Source of the DNA: Strigamia acuminata
Lineage: Eukaryota > Arthropoda > Chilopoda > Geophilomorpha > Linotaeniidae
Assembly: GCA_949358305.1 (NCBI GenBank)
Contig: OX442323.1
Coordinates: 1,922,001 to 1,986,000, forward strand
Direction of reading: 5' to 3'
DNA length: 64,000 bases
Position numbers and translations under genes: made by a program. The notes under the pieces were generated by a model. It made no database searches, had not been told where the DNA came from, and saw nothing but the letters and a program-made list of their open reading frames with translations. Position 1 is the stretch's first letter. Each line of letters starts with the position of its first letter. Below, one piece after another: positions 3,360 to 31,236 of this stretch.

Positions 3360-4457
3360 TTGTTTGAACCAATTGTGAAAGAATATTTCACCAGAACAGT
3401 TCCAGCAATAAATCAACATTATGCCATTTACAATTTTAGCCATTATCAAAGCAAAACAGGATGCAAGTCTAAAACTGGGGGTAGTAGTAAATACGATACA
3501 AGTAGAATCTCACACACATTCGTAGTTAGTCGTGTAAACCGTATAAACAGATTCTTTAAATGCACCTACCGGTAATGTAAAAAAAAAGTTGGTCTGTACA
3601 AGCTTACAATAAATTCAATCCACCATTTGCTTCTGATTGGTTTGAGAGACAAAACCCAACACCAAATTGCAATACAACACACTTGGCTGCATGGAAATTG
3701 TACAGAAGAACCCAAAACAAACGCAGCACCTTCTGGCGTGATGAAGGGTCCAGCGGAAGCCTGCTGACACCTGGGTTTTCAAAAAGCTATTTTCCTTAAA
3801 TCAAAATACCGCCAAAAGCAGTTTCCCAAGTTGAAACTACCCCATGGTAAACAGTTGAGAAGTTTTAAAGGGAAAAAATTATAGATTGTTTTTAATATCG
3901 GAGCAAAGTAGCATGAAAGCTCCGGTTGTAACACCTGCATCTCACCAAAGCCGCTTAGTTTCGATTCGTTGATGAAAGTTTGCAGTGATCATCATCCCCT
4001 ACCAACCAAATGGTATGTCTTATATTCAAATCCCGAGCCTGGCTTTCGCTTTCAACTTATGTTTCTGCTTTTATTTTTTATCTCCATCTGTTTCCCCTTC
4101 CCTTACGTACTCAGGTTTAAATTTACTAGTATACATGAAGAAAAAGAAAAGAAATCCCATTCAACCATATTTTTCAAATACAAGACCTTGGCATTAAGAG
4201 CTAAGCTTCTACTGACTTAATGCCCTGCACCCAAGCAAACAGTGACAAAAAGAAGAGCATGCAGTTGGTTCGACTCTAAGGATTAGCTCTACTACAACTT
4301 GTAAAACAATACTTGACGAAACGACAGAATACCGTGTTTCAGAGCCAGTTGAAGGTTTTTTTTTTTGGCTCTAAAAAACCAACATCTGCCGTATTTCCTC
4401 TATTTGAAATTGTGCGTTGTCGATCATGACTACAATTTGTAAATAGCGTAAATCAGG
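3360..4457. repeat. Segmental duplication, copy A
   Basis: This block is repeated at 5528-7050 with the same order of landmarks: CCAATTGTGrAAGAAwATTTC at the left, a GGGTCCAGCGGAAGCCTGCTGACACC segment in the middle, and CATGACTACAATTTGTAAATAGCG at the right. Copies differ by point changes and small indels. Short open frames inside (for example 3969-4220) are shared by the copies but look like chance frames and I recognise no protein. Copy A lacks the MITE found in copy B. Confidence 0.75.
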
Positions 4458-5527: not shown

Positions 5528-7050
5528 ACCAATTGTGGAAGAAAATTTCACTAGAACAGTTTCAGCAATAAATCAACATTATGCCATTTAGAATTTTAGC
5601 CATTATCAAAGCAAAAGAGAACGCAAGTCTAAAAGTGGGGGTAGTAGGAAATACGATAGTATACTCTGTCCATGTGTAACTTGGGCCTATTTCCGATTGG
5701 CTGAGCCTCATAACTCACTCTGTGCTGCCACCGGGAAAAATAGTTGAGAGTGGTTTTAAATTTGTTTGATGATTTTAATCGTTGAAATGATGTAATGTTG
5801 TTTGTATTTTCTAAGAAAATGTATCTTGAAGTCATAAAATCAAGATTTATGTTGGTTTATTTTAACATTCCTGTTTAATAAGTTTATTGCTTGCTTCTTC
5901 TAGGGAACGAAACAATTTTCAAATTTTTTTGTTAGTTGTTTTGTCTGGAAAGCAGTCAAAATGGCAACCATTGTTTTGATCTATTTTTGGTATCACTACA
6001 CAAGTGAAAAGGCTCAGCCAATCGAAAATAAGCCCAAGTTGGACAAAGTATAGTATAATCTCACACACATTCGTAGTTAGTCGTGTTTTAGAACCACCAA
6101 AAACCATATAAACAGAAACTTTGAAAGTACGTAATGTAAAAAAAAAAGTTGGTCTCTACAAGCTTATACATTCCCCCCCTATTGTTTCTTTTATTTTACA
6201 ATAAATTCAATCCACCATTTGCTTCTGATTGGTTTGAGAGAAAAAACCCAACACAAATAGTGCAACAAATTGCAATACAAGACACTTGGCTGCATAGAAA
6301 TTGTATAGAAGAACCCAAAACAAACGCAGCACCTTCTGGCTTAATGAAGGGTCCAGCGGAAGCCTGCTGACACCTGGGTTTTCAAAAAGCTATTTCCCTT
6401 ATATCAAAAAGCCAAAAGCAGTTTCCCAAGTTAATACTACCCCATGGTAAACAGTAGAGAAGTTTTAAAAAGAAAAATTATAGATTGTTTTTAATATCGG
6501 AGCAAAGTAGCATGAAAGCTCCGGTTGTAACACCTGCATCTCACCAAAGCCGCTTAGTTTCGATTCGTTGACGAAAGTTTGCAGTGATCATCATCCCCTA
6601 CCAACCAAATGGTATGTCCTATATTCAAATCCCAAGCCTGGCTTTCGCTTTCAACTTATGTTTCTGCTTTTATTTTTTATCTCCATCTGTTTCCCCTTCT
6701 CTTATGCACTCAGGTTTAAATTTATACAAAAAGAAAAAGAAAAAAAATCCCATTCAACCATATTTCTCAATGACAAGAACTTGGCATTAAGAGCTAAGCT
6801 TCTACTGACTTAATGCCCTGCACCCAAGCAAACAGTGACAAAAAGAGCAGCATGCAGTTGGTTCGACTCCAAGGATTAGCTATTCCACGACTTGTAAAAC
6901 AATACTTGACGAAATGACAGAATACCGTGTTTCAGAGCCAGTTAAAAGTTTTTTTTGGGGTTTTTTGTGTTTTAAAAAAAACAACATCTGGCATATTTCC
7001 TCTAATTGGCGTTCTCGATCATGACTACAATTTGTAAATAGCGTAAATCA
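5528..7050. repeat. Segmental duplication, copy B (interrupted by a MITE)
   Basis: This is the partner of 3360-4457. Sequence matches copy A from ACCAATTGTG to GCGTAAATCAGG, except that a 385-bp TA-flanked MITE (5664-6048) sits inside copy B where copy A is empty. Homology carries short matching open frames (6568-6813) that I do not consider genes. Confidence 0.75.
5664..6048. mobile_element. TA-flanked MITE (CTCTG family)
   Basis: Terminal inverted repeats of about 40 bp are visible. The left end begins CTCTGTCC and contains AACTTGGGCCTATTTCCGAT. The right end reads inversely as CTTTGTCCAACTTGGGCTTA. Both ends meet a GGCTGAGCC block, and TA flanks both sides. Copy A of the duplication provides an unoccupied version of the site. 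No coding capacity. Confidence 0.8.
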
Positions 7051-11260: not shown

Positions 11261-11360
11261 AAATATAAGTATAGCCTTCAAAGACAGGAGCTGTAAGAAG
11301 AATTTTAATTAAAGGTTTTCACATCCAATTTGGTTGCCCACTGAGTCGTACGATCCATAT

Positions 11361-11858
11361 TGTTACGTGGCTAAATGGGGATTGATTTAGTCCTACGTGA
11401 CATGAAGTTAATCAAGAATGACACAGGGTTTTATATGTAAAATGCCTATTGGCTTTATTATTCAAAGTCGGACATTTACTCATGTAAATGTTCGGTCAAC
11501 AGCTCTTATTACATTTGTTCATTTATTGATCTTAAAATATAAATCATTCAAATAAGTAAATAACTAAATAAGGATGATGCTGTTGTCAATTCAATTCAAT
11601 TCAGGAAACCTAGTCCTGCCTGACCGTCAACCGGCTGGCAGTAGTAGGTGAAGGTAAAAGTTTGAGAATCAAAAGAGATCTGAGCTCTCTGGCTTAATCA
11701 ACTCACTAAGTAAACTCCTATTCCCCCTATCAACTAAGTTGAATGGTCTGTGCATCTAATTAGGTGCACAGCGCCGTCTAGTGAGAATTCATTGCATTAA
11801 ATGCCTAAACAGAGCGAGCAGAGCCAGCCGATACACGGTACGGCTCTACCGCGTAACA
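11361..11858 (-). repeat. 3' LTR of gypsy element 1
   Basis: A 498-bp repeat starts TGTTACG and ends CGTAACA (7-bp terminal inversion). It appears base-for-base identical to 19820-20317. The element reads on the minus strand, so this is the downstream LTR. Confidence 0.95.
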
Positions 11859-11870
11859 GCCCCCCCCTTT
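11859..11870 (-). other. Polypurine tract of gypsy element 1
   Basis: The minus-strand sequence AAAGGGGGGGGC abuts the 3' LTR and is the expected plus-strand DNA primer site. Confidence 0.85.
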
Positions 11871-12315: not shown

Positions 12316-13584
12316 TCATGGCTCCCCAAACTGCATTAAGTCACGGTCTTCAACGTATCTTCCAATGAAGTAGAGTATGGTTGGGCCACAGCTGTCATTA
12401 TCCAATTGGTGCATACGTGGCGGGTCCCAACGTATGAATTTGTTTGGAAACTTTACTCCTGCATCCATCAACGAGTATCTTAAAGATTCCCACTTTGGAT
12501 ATGTGCGCTCTATTGGTCCGCTTGGGTCATAAAGCACGTATTGGGTTGGCTTTTTCCGCCAATCCACTATGAAAAGCTGCCAATGCTCTTCAATAGGAAC
12601 TGGAAACACCCAAATCTTCTTTTGAGCACTTGGAAGTCTCTTCATTAGCCAATAGATCGCTTCCTTTCGTTTAGCTGGGTCCACCATTTTGAAGACCCAC
12701 TCAGATTGAATTGGTGCCAATATGGGATATCGTTCTTCTAACAGTTGGAGGTAGTGATCAACGACGCTGTCATACGTCCAGCTCTGTCGTCCCGGCGTTA
12801 GGTCGCCTAATGCTGCCATCTGATAGTTCATGACTTTAATCGGCGGACAACCTACGGCGTCGAATGCTAAGTCATATTTTGGCGCATTACTATAATCTAA
12901 TGCAAGTCCGAGAGCCTGGACCTGTCGTGCAGCGTCCAACTCCACACGGTATACCCGTATAGGAGTGGGAAATACTACACTAGGGTCCTGGAAGGACTCT
13001 CTTCTCGCTAGGGCGATGGCTTTTAAAATGTTTTTTCTTATCTTCGCCTCCTGGATCAGCAAAGCATTCGCCCCTGTTCTCCACAACTGGTAGTCGGGCA
13101 ATCCCATCACTCCTTTTAATTTCCTGGCTCTAATGGCGTTGACCATATTCCGGTGCTCCATTCGCAAATCATTTAATCGGCGTTTGTTTCGATCAACGGT
13201 GTGACGCATTTCTTCTTCCCGGATTCTTTTCGATTGCTCGTCAAACACTTTCTTCTTTTGTGCTTTCTTATCTCGTTTCAATTGTCGATTCTTACGACGA
13301 CGACGCAATAAGCCTTCTTCACCCTTTGTTAATGGTCCTGCATATTTCTTTTTGTCTTCCTCCGCCTTTTGTTTTCCTTCTGTAAACGGGCGTGGGCAGT
13401 TAACCAATTCGTCCAAAGTTTTACTTGTGCTCGGCTTATTTGCTAAATAAATTTCCAAGTCATCGCCTTTCTTAAGTTGACGTTCCAAAAGATCGCCCAC
13501 TTGCATCGAGCAAACCGAATCCGCATCGCTGTCACTGTCACTACGCACATCCATCCGATCAAATTTGCTTGCCATTTCGTCCAT
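12316..13584 (-). CDS. Gypsy ORF3: Ulp1/SENP-like (C48-type) cysteine protease domain protein
   Basis: A 422-residue protein is encoded between pol and the 3' LTR. The N-terminus (1-70) is acidic and Ser-rich. Residues 75-160 are very Lys/Arg-rich and probably helical. The C-terminal third carries the Ulp1/adenain signature: His334 in EEHWQLFIVDW, Asp353 in LYDPSG, Gln393 and Cys399 in HQLDNDSCGPT. That is the H-D-Q-C order and spacing of SUMO-type proteases. There is no signal peptide, furin site or membrane anchor, so it is not an envelope protein. The start is the first ATG of the frame, 416 bp after pol, so expression probably needs a subgenomic RNA or reinitiation. The substrate is unknown; cleavage of SUMO/ubiquitin-like conjugates or of element proteins is possible. 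The motif match is strong, the function is inferred. Confidence 0.8.
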   Translation of the reverse strand: MDEMASKFDRMDVRSDSDSDADSVCSMQVGDLLERQLKKGDDLEIYLANKPSTSKTLDELVNCPRPFTEGKQKAEEDKKKYAGPLTKGEEGLLRRRRKNRQLKRDKKAQKKKVFDEQSKRIREEEMRHTVDRNKRRLNDLRMEHRNMVNAIRARKLKGVMGLPDYQLWRTGANALLIQEAKIRKNILKAIALARRESFQDPSVVFPTPIRVYRVELDAARQVQALGLALDYSNAPKYDLAFDAVGCPPIKVMNYQMAALGDLTPGRQSWTYDSVVDHYLQLLEERYPILAPIQSEWVFKMVDPAKRKEAIYWLMKRLPSAQKKIWVFPVPIEEHWQLFIVDWRKKPTQYVLYDPSGPIERTYPKWESLRYSLMDAGVKFPNKFIRWDPPRMHQLDNDSCGPTILYFIGRYVEDRDLMQFGEP

Positions 13585-13999
13585 TCGGATTCTAATATAT
13601 TGTTTGAAAAGAAAATAAAATAAATTAATTCATTGATTCAAAATTTTCACAAAATTATTCCAATTTCCATTCATTATTTCATTTAACATTTCATGTTACA
13701 CTAAATTACACTAAATTTAACAATTCTTCAACTAATTAGTCACTTGATAATATATGCACACACTAAAATTTCATTTCGAAGATTTAACACAATTATTTAA
13801 GCCTAAATTTCCATTTCGCGATGTTATTTTCTCACAAAATTCGCGATAGATTCGTTTCGTTTTTAAGCTATTTGTTCGCCAAATTCGTTCAAAATCCACT
13901 CTTTTCACTTACGGAATCACACACAAATCAACTGCTGCTGTTATTAATGCTTTAGGTTTCTTTGAGTCACACAGTAAACCCGGTTCGTCTCAGAAAACC

Positions 14000-16900
14000 T
14001 TAACACAATCCACTGTAGTCACGACGAGCCTGTTTGCGAAGGCGACGTGACCGGAAACTCTCGATTTCAGGTGGCGACGCGTCATCGACTGCGTCAGCGA
14101 CACCTGTCGGCGGTTTTCGCAATTGATTTTCTTCGTTTTTCCGTTCGTCTTCGTTTTGCCATCTTTCCATAATTTCTTTCGGTCCATAGAGCGCTTTTAA
14201 TCGCTCTTTTTCGCTTGGAATTGGGAAATTTGACACTTTTATTGTATTTTCTTCAGGTTCAAAGAGTGTTTTTAACGAAATTTGATCGTCATCGCTAATG
14301 AATCGTTCTTTAGCGATCGGAATTGGCGAAATTGACGTGTTTTCTTCAATTTCTTGTTGTTTTTCACTCTGTGTTGCAGTTTCATCAGCAAATGTGACTT
14401 TTTTAGCTGTCAATTCTTCTAATATCTCCGCTGGAATTTCTTCTCTGGGTTTATACGGTTTTAATCGTTCAATGTTAACAATATCTGTTTTCTTTCCATT
14501 TGAACTTCTAATTTCGTAGTCATTTGGCGCGGTTCTTCTTACTATTTCGAATGGGCCTGAGAATTGTGGTAGGAGTTTTTCACTTAACCCAACTTTTCTA
14601 TTGGGTGTTTTGAGATAAACTAATTCTCCTGGATCAAATTCCACATGAACTCGGCCTTGATCGAATCTTTTTCTGCTTTTTTCTCCTTGCCATTCCAACC
14701 TTTCATTTGCTATTTTCCTAGCTTCTCTGATGAATTTCGAGGTTCGCAAGGTGAATTCTTTCTGAGGTAAGTTGAGGTTTACGTCCACGTTCAAATCAAC
14801 TTCATATCCTTTCAAAAGATAATAAGGTGTATATCCTGTCGTTTCATGCACACCGGTATTATATGAGAAAAGCAAAAATGGCAAAAAATCATCCCAGTCC
14901 CTCTGGTCCTTATCAACATAAATCTGCAACATTTTTGCAAACGTCGCATTAAATCTTTCTGTAAGGCCATTGGTCCTTGGATGGTACCCTGAAGTGGTTT
15001 TGTGTAGGGCTTTAAACATATTTGATACTTCTTCCACCATTTTGTTTCTGTATTCTGTGCCTCTATCGCTCAGGATTTCTCTCGGACTGCCTTCCTTCAA
15101 CATTAACTCATAAAGTAAGGTTCTAGCTGCTTCCAATGCTGTTGATGCTGGAGCTGCTCTAGCAATCACTGTCCGCGACAAATAATCTGTCATTACGAAA
15201 ACATACTTGTTGCCCTTGTCGGAGGTCGGAAAACTTCCCAGTGTATCGATTCCAATCCTCTCGAAAGGCTTAGATATCGTAGACCACGGCTGCATTAAAC
15301 CTTTTGGCGCTGTCGTCATTGATTTCGAGCTCGCGCAATGTGGACAAGAAAGTACGTAATTTCTAACGTCTTTATATATCCGGGGCCAGAAGAATCTTGT
15401 TCTCATTCTCTTCCATGTTTTGTTTAGGCCCAAGTGAGCACCCGTCAGTCCGTCATGCATTTCCTGAAGTACGTCAGTTTTTAGATGCTGCGGAACATAT
15501 AACAGATTTACTTCCGTGTCTAGGGAATTCAAAGAATTTTTCTTCCTAAACAACACATTGTCGAGAAGGACGAACTGCTTTAGAGGACGTCTTCTCTTCT
15601 TCGGAAGTTGCTCTACTTGATTCATTGCGGTGATCAATTCCAGTAGCTTCTTGTCCTTACGCTGCTCAGCAGGAAGGTCGAGCTGTCCGAGTAAAAGTGA
15701 GGGAACTATTTCATTTTCTTCCTCGCTTAAATCTTCTGGAATTCTGCTCAAGGCGTCGGCATCTTTGTGCGCTTTTCCGCTCTTGTAGATCACATCGAAA
15801 TCAAAGTCTACTAGCTGTAGGCTCCATCTAGCTAGTCTGCCATTGGGATTTTTGACTGATTTTAGCCATTGGAGTGCCGAATGGTCTGTAATTATCTGGA
15901 ACTTCTTACCATACAGATAAGGTCGGTACTTTTCAATTCCAAACAGAATGGCCAGACATTCCCTTTCTGTGGCTGTGTAATTCTGTTCTGCTTGGCTGAG
16001 AAGTCTGCTGGCGTAAGCTATCACATGTTCTTGTTTGTTTATCTTCTGTTTCAACACTGCTCCAAGACCATATGCGCTCGCGTCTGTCGATACCATGAAG
16101 GGTTCTTCAAAATTAGGGTGCGCAAGCACTGGCACGGTGATAAGGGCGGTCCTCAATGTCTTGAAGGCCTTGTCATGAGGTGGGCCCCAATCGAATTTCT
16201 CGTCCTTCTTCGTCAAATTGACTAAGGGCTTGGATATGTCCGCAAAACCTGGAATGAACTTCCTGTAATACGAACAGAGCCCTATGAATCCTCGAAGAAG
16301 TTTGAGGTTAGTAGGAACTGGAAACTTAGCTACGGATTCCAGATTCCTAGGGTCTGGTGATATACCCTCAGAGTCCACGACATGTCCCAAATACTTGATG
16401 GTGTTCGTCCCAAATGTGCACTTGCTCAACTTCACCTTTAAGTTAGATTGTCTAAGCTTGTCGAAAACGTTGTCTAGATCTTTCAAATGCTGATCGAATG
16501 TTTTAGAGAAAATGATAAGGTCGTCAATGTACGCTATACAAACTTTGCCCAGGAGGTTGCCTAAAACTTTGTTCATTAGCTTTTGAAAAGCTGCTGGACT
16601 ATTGCATAATCCCATTCCTAGGACGTTAAACTCAAAATGTCCGCTTGAAGTGGTAAACGCTGTTTTTTCACGATCTTGTTCATCTATTTCGACTTGATAA
16701 TATCCTTGAATAAGATCCATCATGGAGAAGAACTGTGCACCTGCCAGCTGATCTAAAGTGTCATCTATTCTTGGCAACGGGTACACCATTTTCTTTGTTA
16801 TCGCATTCAAACGTCTCCAATCAACGCAAAATCTCCACTTACCATCTCTTTTCTTTATTAGCAATACAGGCGCGCTCCAGGGACTTTCTGATTCCCTTAT

Positions 16901-17944
16901 CACTCCCATATCAAGCAATTTCTTTGTTTCCTCTGCTTCGACTTCTTTTTCCTTCATAGAACGACGATACGGTTGCAAATGTATTGGTTCATGGTCTCCA
17001 GTATCGATTTTATGCTTATACTCTTGAACTCTTCCCAAATCCTTGTCAGAAACAGCAAATCTGTCTTGATTCTTTTGAAGAAGTTGTCGCATTTGCTCTT
17101 GTTGGTCTTTATTCATTTTGTCTTTTGCTATTGAGGAGTCAAAGTCAAAACAGTGTACCTGTTTTTCATCAAACACCCCAACATCAACCACATAATAAGC
17201 TTTTGCGATTGCTGACTTCTCCTTCAGAAAGACTGTCTTCTTGGTTGGGTTAGCCACTCGAATGATGCCTTTTCCGTTCTTGAAATCTGTTAAAGTTTTA
17301 CAACCTATCACAGCAAATCTATCAGTAACATTATGCAATGGTTGTACAAACATGTCCAATGTTATTGCTTTATTCAAATAGATGGGAACAATGCACTCAT
17401 GCATTGGTGGAATTGTGATGTTCTTCATTACCCTCGCAACATAATTCTGATCAACAAAAGTTTTATTCATTGGAAATGACACTTCCTTTCCACTAGTTCG
17501 GCCCACAAAGATTTTTTGTTTGTCGTAGTCTAATACGCACTTCGCGAACAGCATGAATGGGTCACTTAGCAGTAGTTCATAATGAAATCCTTTAACAATC
17601 AGGACCTCGATCCTGTATGTTAATTCACCAATTGTAATGTTCATCTTGGCTTTTCCTATTGGAGTCACAAGTTCTCCGCTTACCCCTTGTAATCGTATAT
17701 TTGGGCTTGGCGGGTATTTCAACTGTAAAGCTTCAGCAAGCTCTTCGCTGATAACATTGCGTTTTCCTCCAGTGTCCATAACTGCCTTGACTTCCATGTT
17801 GTTCACTATTACTGGAATTTCCAATAGAGATTCTGAAATGTTCATTTTGACTACGATTATCTTCTCTCTTCTATTCTTTCTTTTCTTCTTTGGATGACAA
17901 CATCTTCCTTGTTGATGGTGACATCTTCTTTGTGGCCGACCCAC
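14000..17944 (-). CDS. pol: Gypsy element 1 Pol polyprotein
   Basis: About 1314 codons with a complete Ty3/gypsy order. Numbering starts at the GTG at 17944: aspartic protease MDTGG (Asp57), reverse transcriptase with YIDD at 472-475, RNase H with Asp621 and TDHSALQWL, integrase zinc finger His830, His837, Cys867, Cys870, and integrase DD35E Asp900, Asp960, Glu996, followed by a GPF-type C-terminal module near 1130. No internal stop is present. The frame opens just after a TAA at 17984-17986 and lacks an ATG near the gag end; the first internal Met is residue 34. It overlaps the gag stop by one base and is shifted by -1, so translation probably uses frameshifting or reinitiation. Antisense open frames here are shadows. 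Confidence 0.95.
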   Translation of the reverse strand: MGRPQRRCHHQQGRCCHPKKKRKNRREKIIVVKMNISESLLEIPVIVNNMEVKAVMDTGGKRNVISEELAEALQLKYPPSPNIRLQGVSGELVTPIGKAKMNITIGELTYRIEVLIVKGFHYELLLSDPFMLFAKCVLDYDKQKIFVGRTSGKEVSFPMNKTFVDQNYVARVMKNITIPPMHECIVPIYLNKAITLDMFVQPLHNVTDRFAVIGCKTLTDFKNGKGIIRVANPTKKTVFLKEKSAIAKAYYVVDVGVFDEKQVHCFDFDSSIAKDKMNKDQQEQMRQLLQKNQDRFAVSDKDLGRVQEYKHKIDTGDHEPIHLQPYRRSMKEKEVEAEETKKLLDMGVIRESESPWSAPVLLIKKRDGKWRFCVDWRRLNAITKKMVYPLPRIDDTLDQLAGAQFFSMMDLIQGYYQVEIDEQDREKTAFTTSSGHFEFNVLGMGLCNSPAAFQKLMNKVLGNLLGKVCIAYIDDLIIFSKTFDQHLKDLDNVFDKLRQSNLKVKLSKCTFGTNTIKYLGHVVDSEGISPDPRNLESVAKFPVPTNLKLLRGFIGLCSYYRKFIPGFADISKPLVNLTKKDEKFDWGPPHDKAFKTLRTALITVPVLAHPNFEEPFMVSTDASAYGLGAVLKQKINKQEHVIAYASRLLSQAEQNYTATERECLAILFGIEKYRPYLYGKKFQIITDHSALQWLKSVKNPNGRLARWSLQLVDFDFDVIYKSGKAHKDADALSRIPEDLSEEENEIVPSLLLGQLDLPAEQRKDKKLLELITAMNQVEQLPKKRRRPLKQFVLLDNVLFRKKNSLNSLDTEVNLLYVPQHLKTDVLQEMHDGLTGAHLGLNKTWKRMRTRFFWPRIYKDVRNYVLSCPHCASSKSMTTAPKGLMQPWSTISKPFERIGIDTLGSFPTSDKGNKYVFVMTDYLSRTVIARAAPASTALEAARTLLYELMLKEGSPREILSDRGTEYRNKMVEEVSNMFKALHKTTSGYHPRTNGLTERFNATFAKMLQIYVDKDQRDWDDFLPFLLFSYNTGVHETTGYTPYYLLKGYEVDLNVDVNLNLPQKEFTLRTSKFIREARKIANERLEWQGEKSRKRFDQGRVHVEFDPGELVYLKTPNRKVGLSEKLLPQFSGPFEIVRRTAPNDYEIRSSNGKKTDIVNIERLKPYKPREEIPAEILEELTAKKVTFADETATQSEKQQEIEENTSISPIPIAKERFISDDDQISLKTLFEPEENTIKVSNFPIPSEKERLKALYGPKEIMERWQNEDERKNEENQLRKPPTGVADAVDDASPPEIESFRSRRLRKQARRDYSGLC

Positions 17945-19275
17945 TAGTTTTCCTCTTCTTGTTGACCTTGTTGTGGGTTCTGCTTAGGATTAGGGTTCGT
18001 TTTACCGCCCCCTTGTGTCCTTTTCTTCTTAAACCACCTTTTGTTGTTTGGGTTCCCTCTATTTTCTTGAGATTGTTGCTCCTGTGGCGCTGATGTGTTA
18101 TGCTCACAACCATAACGATGCCAACATCCACATGAACGCGTTGTTGTCGGACTGCTATTTGACCGCTGTCTACCTCTATTATATCTACCTCTAAAGTTCT
18201 GTCCGCGCTGCGATGCTGGAATATACCACTCGCCTTGTATGAATAATGGAACCGATTGTTGTGGCTCTACTGACTCACTCACGAGCTTTTGCTGTTTTAA
18301 TTTGATATTTTCAGCTAATAACTCGGCGTAGCTTACTGGGGATCCCCCTGTTCCAGACAGTATACCTGTTGTCGTAGGGTTCACCTTTTCATCTACAACT
18401 TTTTTGAACATTGTGAGCAGTAGATCCGCTGGTTCTTCTGTTTTGTGACTTTCATACAATTTAAGTCTCTGTTCCATTTCTTCTAACGTCGATGGAAATA
18501 CTGTTATCATCATCTTCTGCATTGCAGGCTTCAAACCTTGGTAAACATAATTTATTTTCTGAGTTTCAGTCATTTCTGGTAGAATAAACGCACATTCGGC
18601 CAAGACTTTCTTCATGAAGGCATCTGCTGTACCCTCTTTGTGTTTCATGAAGTGGAGAGTATTGTAAACATTTTCTTGGCTTCTTCTAAATTTTTTCTCG
18701 ATCTGTGGTTTCCAATCCGTCCATTTCCATGTCGGATTCTTCTTTAGTTGTTCCACAAACCATGCCAATCCATCAGTCTTTAAGGCTAATGCTAGATGTT
18801 TTACTCTCTCATCATCTGTTCCTATTGTAGCTTCATATGCCACTAGCCATTGGTCAATGTTGCCTTTTTCTGTATCGTAAGTGACGACTGGTCGCTTCTG
18901 CACTACCAAACTCTTCAGTAAGTCGGTCAATACGTCCGTTGGAGTCTGTGATGATGTCATTTTTGGAAAATTTGGTTCAATTGGTATTGGAACTGGTTTA
19001 GTCTTTACTGGTGTAAATGTCTTTATTATTTCTTCTAAACCTTTTTGTGGAATTAATTTTATTAACGGAGTAGCGAAATCCAACTTCTGTAGGATTGATT
19101 GAGGTTGAGATCGGACTTCTTTATCTTCCTTCTGAGGTTCAGTGTCAGATTCAGATCCAGTGTTCCTTTTCTTTCTAGTAGCGATAAATTTCAAATCCGG
19201 TTCGGGCAATTCCCAATTTTGCAAATCTTGAAGATTATCCGTATTGAACTGCGACAATTTTACTGGCTTATCCAC
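17944..19275 (-). CDS. gag: Gypsy element 1 Gag
   Basis: 443 residues starting at the first ATG after the leader. Residues ~140-280 look like a retrotransposon capsid domain (WFVEQLKKNPTWKW, FRRSQENVYNTLHFMKH, LKPAMQKM). The tail is Arg/Gln/Asn-rich with GRYNRGRQRS and a compact CGCWHRYGCEH cluster instead of a canonical CCHC zinc knuckle, so nucleic-acid binding may rely on this unusual Cys/His motif and basic residues. The stop TAG (17944-17946) is followed at -1 by the pol frame. It acts as the structural particle protein. Confidence 0.9.
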   Translation of the reverse strand: MDKPVKLSQFNTDNLQDLQNWELPEPDLKFIATRKKRNTGSESDTEPQKEDKEVRSQPQSILQKLDFATPLIKLIPQKGLEEIIKTFTPVKTKPVPIPIEPNFPKMTSSQTPTDVLTDLLKSLVVQKRPVVTYDTEKGNIDQWLVAYEATIGTDDERVKHLALALKTDGLAWFVEQLKKNPTWKWTDWKPQIEKKFRRSQENVYNTLHFMKHKEGTADAFMKKVLAECAFILPEMTETQKINYVYQGLKPAMQKMMITVFPSTLEEMEQRLKLYESHKTEEPADLLLTMFKKVVDEKVNPTTTGILSGTGGSPVSYAELLAENIKLKQQKLVSESVEPQQSVPLFIQGEWYIPASQRGQNFRGRYNRGRQRSNSSPTTTRSCGCWHRYGCEHNTSAPQEQQSQENRGNPNNKRWFKKKRTQGGGKTNPNPKQNPQQGQQEEEN

Positions 19276-19819
19276 ACTGAAGCCTTTATATTGCGCTTTT
19301 TATCACTTTCACTAGCACTGATTCGCTTTCTAAACACTGAATACACTAACACGAATTCATTACCTGAAAACTTAAAGTGTTATTAGCATATAATACATAA
19401 ATATTACACTCAAAAGTACAAAGAAAATAATCCATCAATAACATTTCAAAACAATTTTTCAATTCCTATAAATTCACAAAATTTCCTGTAAATAAATATC
19501 AAAATTAGTATTTATACACTATATATTTTATTTATTCTAAATATAACAATTGTAAATCAATTTATTAATCCCTAATAAACAATTAAACTCTATTTTTATT
19601 TCCAAAATGCAAATTATTTCACACAATGACATTAAATATTCAAGCTGTGACTTCACTTGTTTTTACCAACTCTGAGTCATTCAAGATAATTGCTATAAAA
19701 TCAGCAATTTTCAAGTTTTTATTTCTAGATTTTTATTAAATTATTTTGGCAATTTTAATCCAATTTTAATGGGATTTTAATTCTAAACGGGCTACAATCG
19801 AGACCGCATCTCCACCAGT
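19276..19819 (-). other. 5' leader and primer-binding site of gypsy element 1
   Basis: About 540 bp of AT-rich leader separates the 5' LTR from gag. Two bases inside the LTR edge the minus strand reads TGGTGGAGATGCGG (19817-19804), beginning TGG as expected for pairing with a tRNA 3' CCA end. I cannot assign the tRNA. Confidence 0.65.
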
Positions 19820-20317
19820 TGTTACGTGGCTAAATGGGGATTGATTTAGTCCTACGTGACATGAAGTTAATCAAGAATGACACAGGGTTTTATATGTAAA
19901 ATGCCTATTGGCTTTATTATTCAAAGTCGGACATTTACTCATGTAAATGTTCGGTCAACAGCTCTTATTACATTTGTTCATTTATTGATCTTAAAATATA
20001 AATCATTCAAATAAGTAAATAACTAAATAAGGATGATGCTGTTGTCAATTCAATTCAATTCAGGAAACCTAGTCCTGCCTGACCGTCAACCGGCTGGCAG
20101 TAGTAGGTGAAGGTAAAAGTTTGAGAATCAAAAGAGATCTGAGCTCTCTGGCTTAATCAACTCACTAAGTAAACTCCTATTCCCCCTATCAACTAAGTTG
20201 AATGGTCTGTGCATCTAATTAGGTGCACAGCGCCGTCTAGTGAGAATTCATTGCATTAAATGCCTAAACAGAGCGAGCAGAGCCAGCCGATACACGGTAC
20301 GGCTCTACCGCGTAACA
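19820..20317 (-). repeat. 5' LTR of gypsy element 1
   Basis: 498 bp, TGTTACG...CGTAACA, apparently identical to the LTR at 11361-11858. It should carry the promoter of the element on the minus strand. Confidence 0.95.
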
Positions 20318-20320
20318 ATA

Positions 20321-20590
20321 TTAACCGATTAAAGTGCTCGGAGCAACAAATTTGGTCACATTAAGGGTGTTATTTTTTATTACAAGCCTTCTAATGACTA
20401 GAGGATACTCGTTATTAAGGAGACAGTCGAGTGGTGATTGGTGGGAGTCTGGCAGAAAGGTTCCTGCAGCAGAAAATTTCAGAATAAACACAATCAACAC
20501 CAACAAATATGTAATTAACTTCAGATGAGGAGAGGTGGAGGCCATTTTGTATAAAAATAGTTTGAGCCACAGGTCGAGAGTCAAAGTCAC
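20321..20590 (-). CDS. Small ORF with a hydrophobic segment, unknown
   Basis: An 89-codon frame; from the internal Met at about residue 16 it reads like a signal peptide (a run of Leu/Ile/Val/Phe followed by Ala-Ala-Gly) and then 45 polar residues with one Cys and an N-glycosylation-like NNT. Its stop TAA lies exactly at the edge of the gypsy target site, so the insertion did not truncate it. I recognise no family and there is no second exon nearby. It could be a chance frame. Confidence 0.15.
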   Translation of the reverse strand: MTLTLDLWLKLFLYKMASTSPHLKLITYLLVLIVFILKFSAAGTFLPDSHQSPLDCLLNNEYPLVIRRLVIKNNTLNVTKFVAPSTLIG

Positions 20591-22009: not shown

Positions 22010-23890
22010 CCTAAAGGCTAATTATATAACATCAACAAATAAATGATGTTATTTATGGCTTTTCTAATATCTTATACCGAAATACAGTACTTTAAAGAAA
22101 AGTTTTGCCTTGGGGCGTCCACTATTATGGGTTTCCGGTTCCTGGCATAACCAGTCCAATTTTTACTAACCACAGGTCAGCATTTGTTTTGTAACGATCG
22201 CCAAAAAACACTAAGGTTTTTTCTTTCTTTTCCGATTGTTATTCCTCAATTTTTATCTTGTTCCAAATAGTGCAAGCTTACATTTCGTTAAACGCTAAAA
22301 ACAGCAAGGATAAAAGTATTAAAATGACCACAACGTCTTCGACGACACGTTGTAAATCGATTTCGACACGACCAGCTCTAATATCCGATCCAAACGTGTC
22401 TTTTCCGGACACAGACAATGAGGAGAATTTGATCACAATCGATCAAAGTGGAGAGAATTTACCGGAGATTCGAACAGATAACATTCCGATGACTAAAAAT
22501 ATGCTGGACGATATTATTCGTAGCGCAGTCGTTAGTGCGCCTTCGCAGGACCGTACCCAAAACCATCAACCCGTTTCGAGCGATTTACGAGGTCCTGCGG
22601 CCAAATTTTGGCCCGGACTCAACAAACTCGGCATTCTTCCTTTTGGTTTAGGTCCCGCTCCATTCGTCTTCACCAAACTTTGTCGCCTCATCGCAGCCTT
22701 GTTGCGATCAATGCAGATTTGGCTAGCAGTCTTCGTCAATGACTGGTTCTTCCGCAGTAAGAACAAGAAACTCCTGTGCACTCAATGCGATTTTTTCTTG
22801 AATCTAATTAGGAACTTAGGTTTCAACACAAACTTCAAGAAATCATTTCTGGAACCTTGTCAGCAAATCTCTTTTCTGGGTTTCGTGTTAATCAGAATTG
22901 ATAATACTTCGGCTATCGCTGCCATTAACAACTTAGGAAGCCCTCGCTCTCCTGAGCTTACAGCGGTGGTCCAAGATCTTTGAGCAATGGAACGAAATAT
23001 CACAGTAAATGCGGAACATATTCCAGGCACCGAGAACTGTCTTGCAGATGCTGCTTCTCGAGTGGCAGTGTTCAATTCGAGAGATTGGAAATTAGAACCT
23101 TTCTCGTTTTAATTGCTTTCATATGGGCTGCGCAGCCATGGTTCCCTATGTTATGGAAACTCTCGATCACGTATATGCTCTTCTTCTTTTGTCGGTTCCT
23201 CATCTCATTCAAAATGCTAGTCCTGAACAAATCCCTCCAACTTTCCGCTTGAAGGAGAACTTTCAACAAAAACTGTCAGATTATTGAGAACTTCCTGGAA
23301 ACAATCTTCTAACAAAACTTACGAATCTGCATGGCAGCGATGGCGTTCTTGGGCACAGGATCTAGATCTGGACCCTTTTAGTCCCTCTCCCGCTAATCTA
23401 GCAAATTTCTTGGCCTTCTTAAACTCTTCCGGTTTATCTTATAATTCTATTTGTTGTCATCGTTCTTCTGTTTCTCAGACTATCTGCCTAAACGGATCTG
23501 AACCTTTAGGTTCTCATCCTCTCCTTCGAAGAGTAATGAATCTCCCAGTACCAAACTACTCTCATATTTGGCACGTGGGCCTTGTTCTGCTTCTTCGCAA
23601 GGAAATTTCATTGTCCCTTCCTTCACCCAAATTATTAGTTAATCTGAAAACTGTGGAAATTCTAATTTTATGTTTAGCAGGGAGATCAGCTAATATCTGC
23701 CTCTTATCTCCTGAAATTGTCTTTTCCGACTTCTCTGGTATTATCCCACTCTTATCCTCGCGAAAATCAGGCTCTCTGGCCCCTTTCAAGCTCAATACAT
23801 TTTCAGACAAGGCCCTTTACTTCAAAAAACCTAAATATAAAAATGCATCTTCTGAACGAGTTAGAATTGCTTATTATTGTTTTTAGATCA
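22010..23890 (+). pseudogene. Decayed, internally deleted DIRS-type retrotransposon
   Basis: From ~22324 a gag-like N-terminus (acidic, Ser/Thr-rich) runs directly into a short piece of reverse transcriptase: LPFGLGPAPFVFTKL, LFVNDWF-like replacing the Y(L/V)DD core, and FLGFVL. Then come an RNase H fragment (IDNTSAIAAINNLG) with a stop at 22981, then AEHIPGTENCLADAASR in the next part. At 23284-23886 the N-terminal half of a tyrosine recombinase appears (NKTYESAWQRWRSWA). This domain order and these motifs are typical of DIRS elements, which integrate with a tyrosine recombinase rather than an integrase. The RT catalytic aspartates are broken, there are stops and deletions, and the recombinase catalytic half is missing. 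Confidence 0.8.
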
Positions 23891-26221: not shown

Positions 26222-26341
26222 ACAGCATCCATTCCACTGCGGTTTGTGTGATTTATGAAGAGAACTGTGTAGAAAATAGTGAACTGTGACTGAAGCTAAG
26301 TGAAAAATTGAGTACGACGCCATTTTGAAAAACATCGCGAC

Positions 26342-29300
26342 ATGGCCAAAATTGAATTTCCACGCTTTGAGAGGCTCTCCAGCGACAACTACCATGCATG
26401 GTCGAAGCGTGCACAGGGAGGTTTGGAAGAAAAGGACGTTTGGGAGGCCATTGACCCAGGTTTTGGACCAATATTAACTCCAGATCAGATGAAGAAGAAC
26501 AAGAAGGCCATTGCTTACCTGTTCATGATTGTAGAAGACAATTATCTGGATGATATTGGCGACCTAAACAGTGCAAAGGAAGCATGGGAGACGTTGAAAG
26601 CGGCGCATTCAAAATTTGGACTGTTGAACGTACTACAATTACTGCGTGATTTATTTACCATCAAAATGAAAAAGGAAGAGTGCATGAGAGATTATCTCGG
26701 ACGGTTGATGCAGATTCACAGGAAGCTTGCAAGCTGCGGTTACGCTTTAAGTGACAAGGAAGTCGCACTCGTGATGCTGATTGGTTTGCCTGAATCTTAT
26801 GAGTCTCTTATTTTGAATTTAGAGCAAAATGAAGATGATTTATCAACGACACTGGTGAAAGCTAGACTTTTGGTAGAAGAAAAGAGGAAACAACGCCGTG
26901 CTGAGGACAAAATAAAGGACGAAGAAGGAGAAGAAACGGCAAAAGTTTTTGCAGCCAAAAATTCGTTCAAAAATTATAAATCGAAAGCAAAATTCGAGAA
27001 AAAAGGCAAACAAACTGAAGGGAGTGAGGGAATAAATGCCAGCAAGCCGCATGAGCAGAAGAAGTGGATCAAATGTTACTGCTGCAATAAAATGGGCCAT
27101 ATTGCACGTAACTGTCCTGATGCGAAAGAAGCGGAAGACAGCAGCAAGAAGGAAGAACCTGCGAAATCCGCCAAGATTGTTCGACAGAAGGCGTTGCGTG
27201 TAACAGAAGTTGGTCACAATGCAGAGGAAATGATTTGGTATCTCGACAGCGGCGCGACCGATCACATGACGGCATCTAAAAACAAATTGTCAAATTTCAA
27301 GCCAAAACGATCTCGAGTAGATGTTGCTAATAAAGAAGCAATGACCGTGGAAGGAACCGGGACTACTGAATTTGCCCTTTCTGACGAAAATGGGGGTACA
27401 GAAGTAATTCTAAAGGATGTCCTGTTTATACCGGAACTTGACGGAAATTTGTTGTCGGTTGGACGTTTGGATGAACTAGGATACAAGATTGATTTTGGAA
27501 ATGGACTCGCCACGGTAAAGGATGAGGATGGAGAAGAAATTATCGTTGCGAAACGAGAAGGCCGTTTATACAAAATCATCGAAGGAAGACGTGCGGCAAA
27601 GAAGGCAAAAATGGAGGATGAAACACTTTGGCACAGACGTTTGGGCCACCTACATTTTGACGCTGTACAGAGTCTAAAGAAGAAAGAAGAAATCCAATTC
27701 GACGATAAAGATGAAACAGCAGGAAAGTGCGAAATTTGCATGAGAGCAAAAATCAAACGAAAACCATTTCCATCACAAAGTTTGTCGAAAACGAGCGCAC
27801 CATTGGAGCTAATACACACAGATGTCATGGGGAAAATCACACCAACCTCAATTGGAGGAACAAAGTACATTGTTACTTTTGTGGATGATTACACACGATA
27901 CACTGTTGCGTATTTTCTCAAGTCAAAAGACGAAGTACTTGAGAAGTTTGACCACTATCGACGAATGGCCGAAACACTCCACGGTACGAAGATTAAGAAA
28001 ATTAGAAGCGACAACGGAGGCGAATACGTGTCGAAGGTTTTTGACGAGTATCTGGCCAAACACGGAATCATGCGTCAGAAGACCATACCCGGGACCCCGC
28101 AACAAAATGGGATCGCCGAGCGTATGAATGAAACCCTGTTAGACATGGCAAGATGTTTCATGGTAGAATCAGGAATTCCGAAAGGATACTGGGCAGACGC
28201 CATCAACACCGCATGTTTCATACGAAACAAATGCACGTCACGATCCATAAATGGAGAAACACCGGAGCGTTTATGGACGTCAAAAGATGTTGATCGAAGT
28301 TTTTTGCGAGTATTCGGTTGCCTAGCATGGTCATCGGATCGAAGATTGGCGAAGAAAGGCAAACTTGACCCGAGAGGAGTCAAATGCGTTTTGTTAGGAT
28401 ACTCATTGGAAACGAAAGGGTATAAATTATGGAATGTTGACACGGGTGAAATTTTTCTAAGCAGAGACGTAATATTTGAAGAAGATGTGTTCCCATTGAA
28501 AAAGAACACGAATGCAGACGGTATTCAGCAAATAAACGTCGAAAGAGAGGAAATTTTTCCCCAGTTGGACCAGACAGAAGAAAAAATACCCGATCGAGAT
28601 GATTGTATCAAGGAAACAAACGAAGTCGGCAAAATAGACGAAGTCGGCGAAATAAACGAAGTCGGCGACATAAACGAAGTCGGTGAAGTAGACGAAGGGG
28701 AAAATGAACCCACATCACAAGTAGAAAGTGAAAGTTCATCAAACGAAGCAAACAGCAAAATTATACTGTCTGAAGAAGGTGAAAACACGTATGATGAAGC
28801 CGCACCTGAAAGAGAAATAAATTTGTTTCAAGACGGAGAGGAAAATTCGTTGGACGAAGACAGAACATTGTTGCCACTACCAGAAACTCAAACGACTATA
28901 AAGCGCTCAGACAGACAAGCAGCTAAACGAGACTACCAAATGAAAGACATTCCAACCAAGGTAGCAAAAGCTGATTGCCAAATGGTGTGTAGCGTCTGTA
29001 AAGCTGCAAAACTGGAGGATGTCCCCAAGACATGGACAGCTGCTTTAAAGTCACCGGAAGCAGAGATGTGGTCAACAGCAATGGATGAAGAAATGTTCAA
29101 CATGAAAGAAAATGAAACATGGACTCTCGTCCCAAAACCACCAGACAAAAAGACGATTGGTGCGAGATGGGTTTTCACGAAAAAGTACAAGGACGGAGAA
29201 TTTGAGAAGTATAAGGCGCGTTTAGTGGCGCAAGGTTTTACCCAAATCCCTGGCATCGACTATGGTGAAACGTACTCCCCGGTCGTGAAGATAAAATCCC

Positions 29301-30628
29301 TAAGGATTCTAATTGCACTCGCAGTAGAGAGAGGATGGAAAATACGCCAATTAGACTTCACAGCAGCTTACTTAAACGCAAAGTTAAAGGAAGAAATTTA
29401 TTTGAAGCAAGTTAAGCCGTACGTTGAAGAAGGGAAAGAGGACCACGTATGTAAGCTGGATAAAACTATATACGGACTCCACCAGAGTGGAAGGGAGTGG
29501 AACGAATGCCTCGAGGAATACTTCACGTCCATAGGATTGACAGGATGCAAATCAGAACCATGCGTGTACTACAACGAAGAGAAAAATCTGATTGTTGCTA
29601 TTTTTGTTGACGACAACTTTATTATCGGAAAGGACGACAAGATAATTGAAGATTTCGTAGACAAGACGAGCGGCAGATTCAAGACGAAGGATCTGGGTGA
29701 AGCAGAATTCATATTAGGAATGAAGATTGAATATCTTGCAGACGGTAGTATAAGCCTTGATCAAACTAAATACATCGAAGAGGTGATGGAGGTATTCAAC
29801 ATGGAAAAAGCAAAGAACGCATCCACACCGCTGGTACCTGGAGTGAAGTACAAAAAGATAGAAGATGACGAATGGTCCAAAGTGAAGAAAGAAAGCGAGT
29901 CATTGCCGTATCGCCAAGCAGTTGGAAGTCTGCTCTACATATCTGGCGGCACAAGACCAGATTTAGCGTACGCCACTGCATACATGAGCCAGTTCTGTGA
30001 GCGCCCAGGTCGAGAGCATTGGAATGGAATAAAGCAAATGCTACGATACGTCCAGAAAACGAAGAATTTGAAGTTAGTCTTTAAGAAGACAGGGAAGAAA
30101 ATGAAGGGCTACGCAGATGCAGACTGGGGAAGTGACGTGACAGACAGAAGATCATACAGCGGTTACATCTTCAAAATGGCAGACTCACCTGTAACCTGGA
30201 GTAGCAAGAAGCAACCGATGGTTGCTCTATCTTCAGTCGAGGCAGAATACATGGCGATGATACACTCATCGAAAGAAGCAAAATGGCTAAAATCTTTCTT
30301 GACGGAAATCGGGGCAGAGGAGTTCATCGGAGACCCACTCACCTGGAATTCAGATAGCCAAGGAGCGATGGCGTTATGTAGGAACAAAATAGTGAGCGAG
30401 AGAAACAAACACATCGATCTGAAGTATTTCTACCTGCGAGACGAAGTACGAGCCGGAAGAATAAATTTCGAATACATTGCCACAAACGAAAATCCTGCTG
30501 ACATGTTCACGAAGTCACTGCCGAGGGGAACACTACGAGATCATGTCAACAACGTTGGGATGTCATTGGGGGGGGCCAAGCCGGTGCCCCAATTAGGGGA
30601 AGGTGTTGTAAATAATTGTGACACCTAG
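26342..30628 (+). CDS. Copia Gag-Pol polyprotein
   Basis: 1428 residues in one frame. In order: a copia Gag domain from the N-terminus; a CCHC knuckle CYCCNKMGHIARNC near 245; aspartic protease WYLDSGATDHM (Asp near 301); the integrase HHCC finger and DD35E residues near 494, 555 and 591 (RSDNGGEY, QQNGIAER); reverse transcriptase with KARLVAQGFTQ and FVDDNF near 1090; and RNase H with ADADWGS and ALSSVEAEYMA. A short acidic tandem repeat of EVGxIx units lies at 28618-28690, in the linker between integrase and RT. The ORF passes through the polypurine tract and stops 25 bp inside the 3' LTR. FVDD replaces the usual YVDD. No stop or frameshift is seen, so it could be functional. Confidence 0.97.
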   Translation: MAKIEFPRFERLSSDNYHAWSKRAQGGLEEKDVWEAIDPGFGPILTPDQMKKNKKAIAYLFMIVEDNYLDDIGDLNSAKEAWETLKAAHSKFGLLNVLQLLRDLFTIKMKKEECMRDYLGRLMQIHRKLASCGYALSDKEVALVMLIGLPESYESLILNLEQNEDDLSTTLVKARLLVEEKRKQRRAEDKIKDEEGEETAKVFAAKNSFKNYKSKAKFEKKGKQTEGSEGINASKPHEQKKWIKCYCCNKMGHIARNCPDAKEAEDSSKKEEPAKSAKIVRQKALRVTEVGHNAEEMIWYLDSGATDHMTASKNKLSNFKPKRSRVDVANKEAMTVEGTGTTEFALSDENGGTEVILKDVLFIPELDGNLLSVGRLDELGYKIDFGNGLATVKDEDGEEIIVAKREGRLYKIIEGRRAAKKAKMEDETLWHRRLGHLHFDAVQSLKKKEEIQFDDKDETAGKCEICMRAKIKRKPFPSQSLSKTSAPLELIHTDVMGKITPTSIGGTKYIVTFVDDYTRYTVAYFLKSKDEVLEKFDHYRRMAETLHGTKIKKIRSDNGGEYVSKVFDEYLAKHGIMRQKTIPGTPQQNGIAERMNETLLDMARCFMVESGIPKGYWADAINTACFIRNKCTSRSINGETPERLWTSKDVDRSFLRVFGCLAWSSDRRLAKKGKLDPRGVKCVLLGYSLETKGYKLWNVDTGEIFLSRDVIFEEDVFPLKKNTNADGIQQINVEREEIFPQLDQTEEKIPDRDDCIKETNEVGKIDEVGEINEVGDINEVGEVDEGENEPTSQVESESSSNEANSKIILSEEGENTYDEAAPEREINLFQDGEENSLDEDRTLLPLPETQTTIKRSDRQAAKRDYQMKDIPTKVAKADCQMVCSVCKAAKLEDVPKTWTAALKSPEAEMWSTAMDEEMFNMKENETWTLVPKPPDKKTIGARWVFTKKYKDGEFEKYKARLVAQGFTQIPGIDYGETYSPVVKIKSLRILIALAVERGWKIRQLDFTAAYLNAKLKEEIYLKQVKPYVEEGKEDHVCKLDKTIYGLHQSGREWNECLEEYFTSIGLTGCKSEPCVYYNEEKNLIVAIFVDDNFIIGKDDKIIEDFVDKTSGRFKTKDLGEAEFILGMKIEYLADGSISLDQTKYIEEVMEVFNMEKAKNASTPLVPGVKYKKIEDDEWSKVKKESESLPYRQAVGSLLYISGGTRPDLAYATAYMSQFCERPGREHWNGIKQMLRYVQKTKNLKLVFKKTGKKMKGYADADWGSDVTDRRSYSGYIFKMADSPVTWSSKKQPMVALSSVEAEYMAMIHSSKEAKWLKSFLTEIGAEEFIGDPLTWNSDSQGAMALCRNKIVSERNKHIDLKYFYLRDEVRAGRINFEYIATNENPADMFTKSLPRGTLRDHVNNVGMSLGGAKPVPQLGEGVVNNCDT
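30595..30603 (+). other. Polypurine tract of the copia element
   Basis: AGGGGAAGG directly precedes the 3' LTR. It also encodes the last Gag-Pol residues before the LTR. Confidence 0.8.
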
Positions 30629-30797: not shown

Positions 30798-31236
30798 TTT
30801 TCGTTAGAAATTGGACTGTTGGTTTCGCCTGGATCGAGGAGACGTCTCATCATTGCCGAACGTCGAACGTTCGCCCGACGTCTGGAATCGACCGTGTGTT
30901 GTCAAAGTAAAGTCTTCTCATCACCGAACGTCGCGTGTGCGTTTTGCTTTCCTCGTTGGAAATTTGACAGTTGCCGTCGCAGGTATTTTGCAGTATTTAA
31001 TCTCGCGAGGAGCGGGATTATTTTGTCGAGCTGAGCTGGACTTTTGCGGTTGGTCTGCAATTCGTCGTGTTGGCCTGTCAACCTAGAGATTCTTCGTGTG
31101 ACGCCAGATGAGAGCAACAAGCTGTTGTGCATTATTTTGTACTTTTTATTTTTATTTTCTTTTCATTTTTCCCGAGAAGGGAACTTTTGATTTTGGAGCA
31201 AGCAGCCATATTTGGTCATCCGTGTTCGAATCGAAG

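Follow-up and report, generated by a model that had tools for sequence, protein, structure and literature searches.

The 64,000-nt stretch of Strigamia acuminata DNA analyzed here (OX442323.1, positions 1,922,001-1,986,000; hereafter the window) contains on its minus strand a Ty3/gypsy long terminal repeat (LTR) retrotransposon whose third open reading frame (ORF), ORF3 (12316..13584, 422 aa in this copy), encodes what sequence comparison and structure prediction identify as a cysteine protease of the SENP1/2-Ulp1 type, joined to an N-terminal region that is basic and helical. The element is bounded by LTRs of 498 nt with TG...CA ends (3' LTR at 11361..11858, 5' LTR at 19820..20317) that do not differ at any position, and the target-site duplication ATAT lies at 11357..11360 on the 3' side and at 20318..20321 on the 5' side. 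A polypurine tract, AAAGGGGGGGGC, precedes the 3' LTR (11859..11870), and a candidate primer-binding site, TGGTGGAGATGCGG, follows the 5' LTR (19804..19817). The gag open frame (17944..19299) has a weak Ty3_capsid match, at E 7.8e-4 below the curated Pfam cut-off, and overlaps by 40 nt, in a different frame, the pol open frame (14000..17983), in which Pfam places an aspartic protease, reverse transcriptase, RNase H, and integrase. This order of pol domains, the LTRs, and the short target duplication are those of a Ty3/gypsy element. ORF3 begins 415 nt downstream of the pol stop and is the third ORF, in the envelope position that an earlier, sequence-only reading had assigned to it. Similarity to the gag of a related element (L063:6362-7741) reaches well upstream of the first ATG of the window gag, so gag may be translated from a spliced RNA or from a non-AUG start. 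The best named relative of pol among the matches listed is from the pseudoscorpion Cordylochernes (44% identity, 65% query coverage), and Cordylochernes and spiders account for many more of the named relatives listed.

ORF3 consists of the basic helical region (approximately residues 1-205) and an Ulp1/SENP-type domain (approximately residues 212-422) that is truncated in the window copy. All four catalytic residues are present, and their His-Asp-Gln-Cys order and spacing align with those of SENP1: His334 (codon 12583..12585) in an HW motif with the adjacent Trp335, Asp353 (12526..12528), the oxyanion-hole Gln393 (12406..12408), and Cys399 (12388..12390). Among 28 distinct ORF3s the Asp, Gln, Cys, and Trp335 are invariant and the His is kept in 27; Trp269 is kept in all 27 that cover its position. 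We take Trp269 and Trp335 to correspond to the two Trp positions that make up the Gly-Gly tail tunnel of SENP1. A profile search matches SENP1 across the whole domain at E 1.9e-10, the top matches in both sequence and fold are SENP1, SENP2, and Ulp1, and the structure predicted for a longer copy, L003, has the Ulp1 fold. In Pfam, the window ORF3 matches no family at E≤1, C48 included, and L003 reaches 11.8 bits for C48 against a cut-off of 20.7; among 20 ORF3 members, 16 match C48 at E≤1 (best E 1.2e-4). ORF3 thus resembles the C48 peptidases human SENP1 and SENP2 in catalytic order, predicted fold, and full-domain profile match, and differs from them in its approximately 20% identity, its encoding by a retroelement, and its N-terminal region.

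A genome search with the window ORF3 returned at least 100 matches (99 of 426 candidates scored). Forty-five listed matches share at least 90% identity with the window copy, 39 of them full length and without a stop; most members of further groups, at approximately 39-43%, 35-36%, and 31-35% identity, are also long and open, and matches at 62% and 69-77% identity contain stops. We took 40 loci, the 20 best returned plus 20 picked for diversity among stop-free matches, passing over those with stops. At 36 of the 40, ORF3 is preceded by an ORF that contains pol in whole or in part; tblastn found short pol remnants upstream at L036 and L040 and none at L026 and L038. ORF3 is linked to pol across at least four lineages, and its active site is conserved between lineages that are just 31-42% identical to L003.

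Selection was estimated by the Nei-Gojobori method on 26 chosen ORF3 pairs, of which 11 were saturated at synonymous sites and 15 were measurable. In 14 of these 15, dN/dS is 0.02-0.15; the exception, L024/L025, gives 0.39 on 5 synonymous and 7 non-synonymous changes, and L024 has lost most of pol. Pol fragments from 12 pairs yielded 11 measurable values, ranging over 0.04-0.25. ORF3 is under purifying selection, with a constraint about as strong as that on pol. The sequence-only reading, which had named a Ulp1/SENP-type protease from its catalytic residues and looked to the fold and to other copies for confirmation, is upheld by the predicted structure of L003 and by the many other copies under selection, and its suggestion that the frame is under use is supported at the level of the family. 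In favor of ORF3 being instead a passenger, a captured host gene without a role for the element, are the dN/dS of 0.39 on 12 changes between L024 and L025, the internal deletions of L024 and L036, and a deletion copy at two sites (see below). Low dN/dS in nearly all pairs, the linkage to pol over at least four lineages, and the 39 of 45 close copies that remain full length and open make this highly improbable, and we consider it already disfavored.

Non-autonomous families retaining only ORF3 were sought behind L026, L036, and L038, and none was found. The sequence upstream of L026 is repetitive, with a match at each of the 40 places scored among 827 candidates; the deletion junction of L036 has a whole match at 1 of the 40 scored among 287 candidates, and the sequence upstream of L038 is single-copy, with a whole match to itself and 8 partial matches elsewhere. 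L038 (C5:11346795-11348111) is a solitary, open ORF3 relative of 465 codons with no pol upstream and with Ser for the catalytic His, and may be a decaying relic or a domesticated gene. An open copy without this His, and the basic N-terminal region of the family, would both suit a domain that mainly binds SUMO-marked chromatin or pre-integration partners as a tether, with catalysis secondary. We regard such a tether as distinctly improbable given that Cys, Asp, and Gln are retained in 28 of 28 ORF3s and His in 27 of 28 across these divergent lineages, and given that L038, with its single-copy upstream sequence, may be decaying.

The window copy of ORF3 is itself truncated. A 68-nt deletion relative to the family lies at 12316..12318 (minus strand) and is followed by a stop codon, and the last helix of the protease domain is lost. 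Measured from the ATG to a marker past the junction, the window copy and L001 lack 68 nt relative to all 12 other copies measured, and ORF3 has 422 aa in these two versus 457 aa in close copies. Since the last long helix occupies residues 422-435 of the predicted structure, the catalytic domain of the window copy, which ends at residue 422, is incomplete, and the truncated protein may be inactive. A 151-nt probe across the junction, with 40 candidates scored (51 seen), was matched whole by 2, in two pieces by 37, and by its downstream piece alone by 1, which puts the deletion at 2 of 39 scored loci. The window copy and a copy on C8 are identical over 2643 nt and begin to diverge at the LTR end, which places them at two different insertion sites; the C8 copy has ATAT before it and ATAG after it, an imperfect duplication. 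The version with truncated ORF3 has thus been copied at least once, perhaps with the help of longer copies in trans. The description of the element as intact in the sequence-only reading fits its LTRs and its open gag and pol frames and does not fit its ORF3, nor does the support for "under use" extend to the truncated protein of the window.

ATAT follows the 3' LTR at 18 of 20 loci, with ATAG and GTAT at the others, a palindromic target of the errantivirus kind; fly errantiviruses prefer three such targets, ATAT among them (PMC5408687). L015 and L016, both counted among these 20 flanks, probably represent one insertion within a duplicated segment, as the 14 bases that follow the 3' LTR are shared by the two. 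Like the errantiviruses gypsy, ZAM, and Idefix, the element has gag, pol, and a third ORF and uses ATAT; unlike theirs, its ORF3 is protease-like and not an envelope glycoprotein. No envelope fusion protein is recognizable in ORF3, which has a SENP fold instead and no Pfam family at E≤1, and in which no transmembrane-like stretch was seen in the 7 sequences inspected.

Ulp1 domains are already known from other mobile elements. Ginger1 and Mutator DNA transposons carry them, in Ginger1 at the C terminus of the transposase (PMC2836005), and the nematode NeSL and Utopia-1_TSP non-LTR retrotransposons have an N-terminal Ulp1-like cysteine protease domain (PMC4640811). ORF3 resembles the former as an Ulp1 domain within a mobile element, but is a separate ORF of an LTR element and not part of a DNA transposon; it resembles the latter as an Ulp1-like protease of a retrotransposon, but theirs is N-terminal in a non-LTR protein. 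The genome also holds a Mutator-like frame of 1075 aa, L046, with a clear C48 match and with PHD and Mutator matches below Pfam cut-offs; six places in all score alike, the five others on C1, C4, C6, C9, and C56. There, C48 shares one frame with the Mutator and PHD matches, whereas the gypsy ORF3 stands alone. Troyka encodes no envelope, and "ulp" does not occur in the accessible text of its paper (PMC12440569). What appears to be new is a gypsy LTR element with an Ulp1-type protease in a third ORF of its own, for which searches aimed at it gave no precedent in the accessible parts of the open-licence PMC literature. Relatives of ORF3 outside this genome were not found: a single ORF3 searched against approximately 5.8 billion proteins gave no match at E≤1e-3 among 7997 scored candidates, and a 20-sequence ORF3 alignment gave none among 7995. 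In IMG/VR contigs, 4 stretches fit a pattern and none was confirmed as an ORF3 relative, and among the 120 listed of 1038 pol relatives (E≤0.001) none had the ORF3 domain (best E 0.37). These searches depend on shared words and cover animals unevenly, so that absence is weak evidence.

Within the genome, ORF3 may have moved between elements. At 20 loci with both parts, the ORF3 and pol trees agree on the main groups and place L035 and L025/L031 differently. At the DNA level, identity between L025 and L031 is 94-98% through most of the portion of pol read but 62-74% in ORF3; the corresponding values for L035 and L032 are 82-97% and 60-71%, and the drop in identity is located approximately 400-800 nt before ORF3. 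Synonymous sites of L025/L031 are saturated in ORF3, with a dS of 0.145 in pol. We infer that recombination swapping a 3' module best accounts for this discordance between the trees.

The clan fold is also common to adenain and the CE-clan proteases of large DNA viruses, and ORF3 might mature the element's particle as the adenain, poxvirus, and African swine fever virus proteases do. Adenain-type maturases cut (M/I/L)XGG-X sites in capsid precursors. Three Gly-Gly positions occur in the window Gag and one in Pol (residue 72), and none is kept in the gag and N-terminal pol of L063, the one other lineage compared over these parts; 13 C-terminal pol parts have no Gly-Gly except one common to the near-identical pols of L025 and L031. 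Because pol already supplies an aspartic protease and no Gly-Gly is common to different lineages in these parts, particle maturation seems less likely and, with ORF3 closer in fold to SENP than to the viral proteases, we rate it as improbable.

A pyrimidine-rich tract with an AG 7 nt before the ORF3 ATG (13592..13624, minus strand) is a candidate 3' splice site, and in each of the 14 loci inspected an AG at the end of a stretch rich in pyrimidines or in T precedes this ATG, both picked out by eye with no shuffled control. Errantivirus env genes are expressed from a subgenomic mRNA via such an acceptor. Residues 80-200 of ORF3 have a net charge of +15 to +22 in 7 sequences, and the N-terminal region is predicted to form long helices for which fold comparison gave no clear match.

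Beyond a SENP-type protein under selection, the scheme we propose is conditional. ORF3 would be translated from a spliced subgenomic mRNA, and its product would enter the nucleus and strip SUMO from host chromatin or transcription proteins; SUMO removal would then release the element from SUMO-dependent repression or favor its transcription and integration in another way. We give roughly even odds (about 0.5) to ORF3 being expressed from a spliced mRNA as a nuclear deSUMOylase that counteracts the SUMO-dependent repression of this errantivirus-like Ty3/gypsy element, a reading we prefer because of the SENP1/2-like fold, the conserved tunnel Trp, the basic helical N terminus without a transmembrane stretch, and the aspartic protease in pol. 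In flies, SUMO ligase activity participates in piRNA-guided transposon silencing (PMC7272611). In yeast, Ty1 RNA rises with inactive Ubc9, with loss of Siz1 and Siz2, or with untethered Ulp1, a rise the authors ascribe to decreased SUMOylation, and transposition is 86- to 89-fold higher in two mutants (PMC8585004). Since Ty1 is derepressed at low SUMOylation, an element-encoded deSUMOylase that lifts repression would be the best explanation of ORF3. More tentatively, and at somewhat less than even odds, a nuclear deSUMOylase may have replaced the envelope in an errantivirus-like lineage, where it counters SUMO-dependent (e.g., piRNA-guided) silencing, and may have been passed between element lineages as a module, as the near-identical pol and divergent ORF3 of L025 and L031 suggest.

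Several observations weigh against a nuclear deSUMOylase. Ulp1-type domains also cleave NEDD8 and ubiquitin, the NEDD8 protease ranks just 4.5 Z units below in the fold comparison, and ORF3 position 272, which we take to correspond to the SUMO-contact Asp of SENP1, is Asp in just 17 of the 27 sequences with a letter there. ORF3 could then be an Ulp1-fold protease for NEDD8 or ubiquitin that shields the proteins of the element from degradation or relieves some other restriction. Because the SENP1/SENP2/Ulp1 branch tops all others in sequence and predicted fold, SUMO is nonetheless the likeliest substrate class; with no NEDD8 protease, moreover, among the 17 profile-search matches at E≤1, another modifier is unlikely, if the most serious of the alternatives. 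The Ser of L038 in place of His334 counts on the same side, as do the truncated ORF3s at two sites, for which a complete ORF3 in cis is not strictly required, and the choice of stop-free copies for dN/dS, which favors functional copies and under-represents decaying ones. Finally, a canonical SUMO gene sought in the host by PF11976 (23 matches) could not be pinned down.

The host genome has two zf-MIZ matches. Among the PF11976 matches, judged by eye, the four repeated copies inspected (L056, L057, L058, and L060) are ubiquitin-like, L059 has several ubiquitin-like repeats, and C9:7980929 resembles a Rad60-type domain; a tandem array at C3:25597924-25599048 shows the 228-nt spacing of polyubiquitin.

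Elsewhere in the genome, three 9-kb loci, L062 (C5:11209000), L063 (C3:1896700), and L064 (C13:1381200), contain repeated multi-kilobase stretches approximately 95-98% identical. These encode a tyrosine recombinase that matches Phage_integrase at E 2.9e-14 in L062, a CBM_14 protein in L063, an ubiquitin-like ORF, and a Cys-rich protein whose C-terminal end is hydrophobic. The stretches have the appearance of endogenous copies of a large DNA virus, and may encode proteins like the PIF proteins of the baculovirus type. At L063:6362-9000, the gag and partial pol of the related gypsy element adjoin this virus-like stretch. The window itself also holds long open frames of a copia-type (26312-30628) and a second gypsy-type (31102-35922) polyprotein and frames that look like fragments of a recombinase-bearing DIRS-type element (22195-23886), all on the plus strand and typed by eye, and a pair of direct repeats (4000-4363 and 6599-6956) that are 90-93% identical and approximately 2.6 kb apart.

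If ORF3 is a selected SENP-like gene of an LTR retrotransposon, then these elements would offer a natural experiment in counter-silencing. It would follow that gypsy elements have, in their third ORF, a slot for functions beyond cell entry, and that Ulp1 domains have entered DNA, non-LTR, and LTR elements alike.
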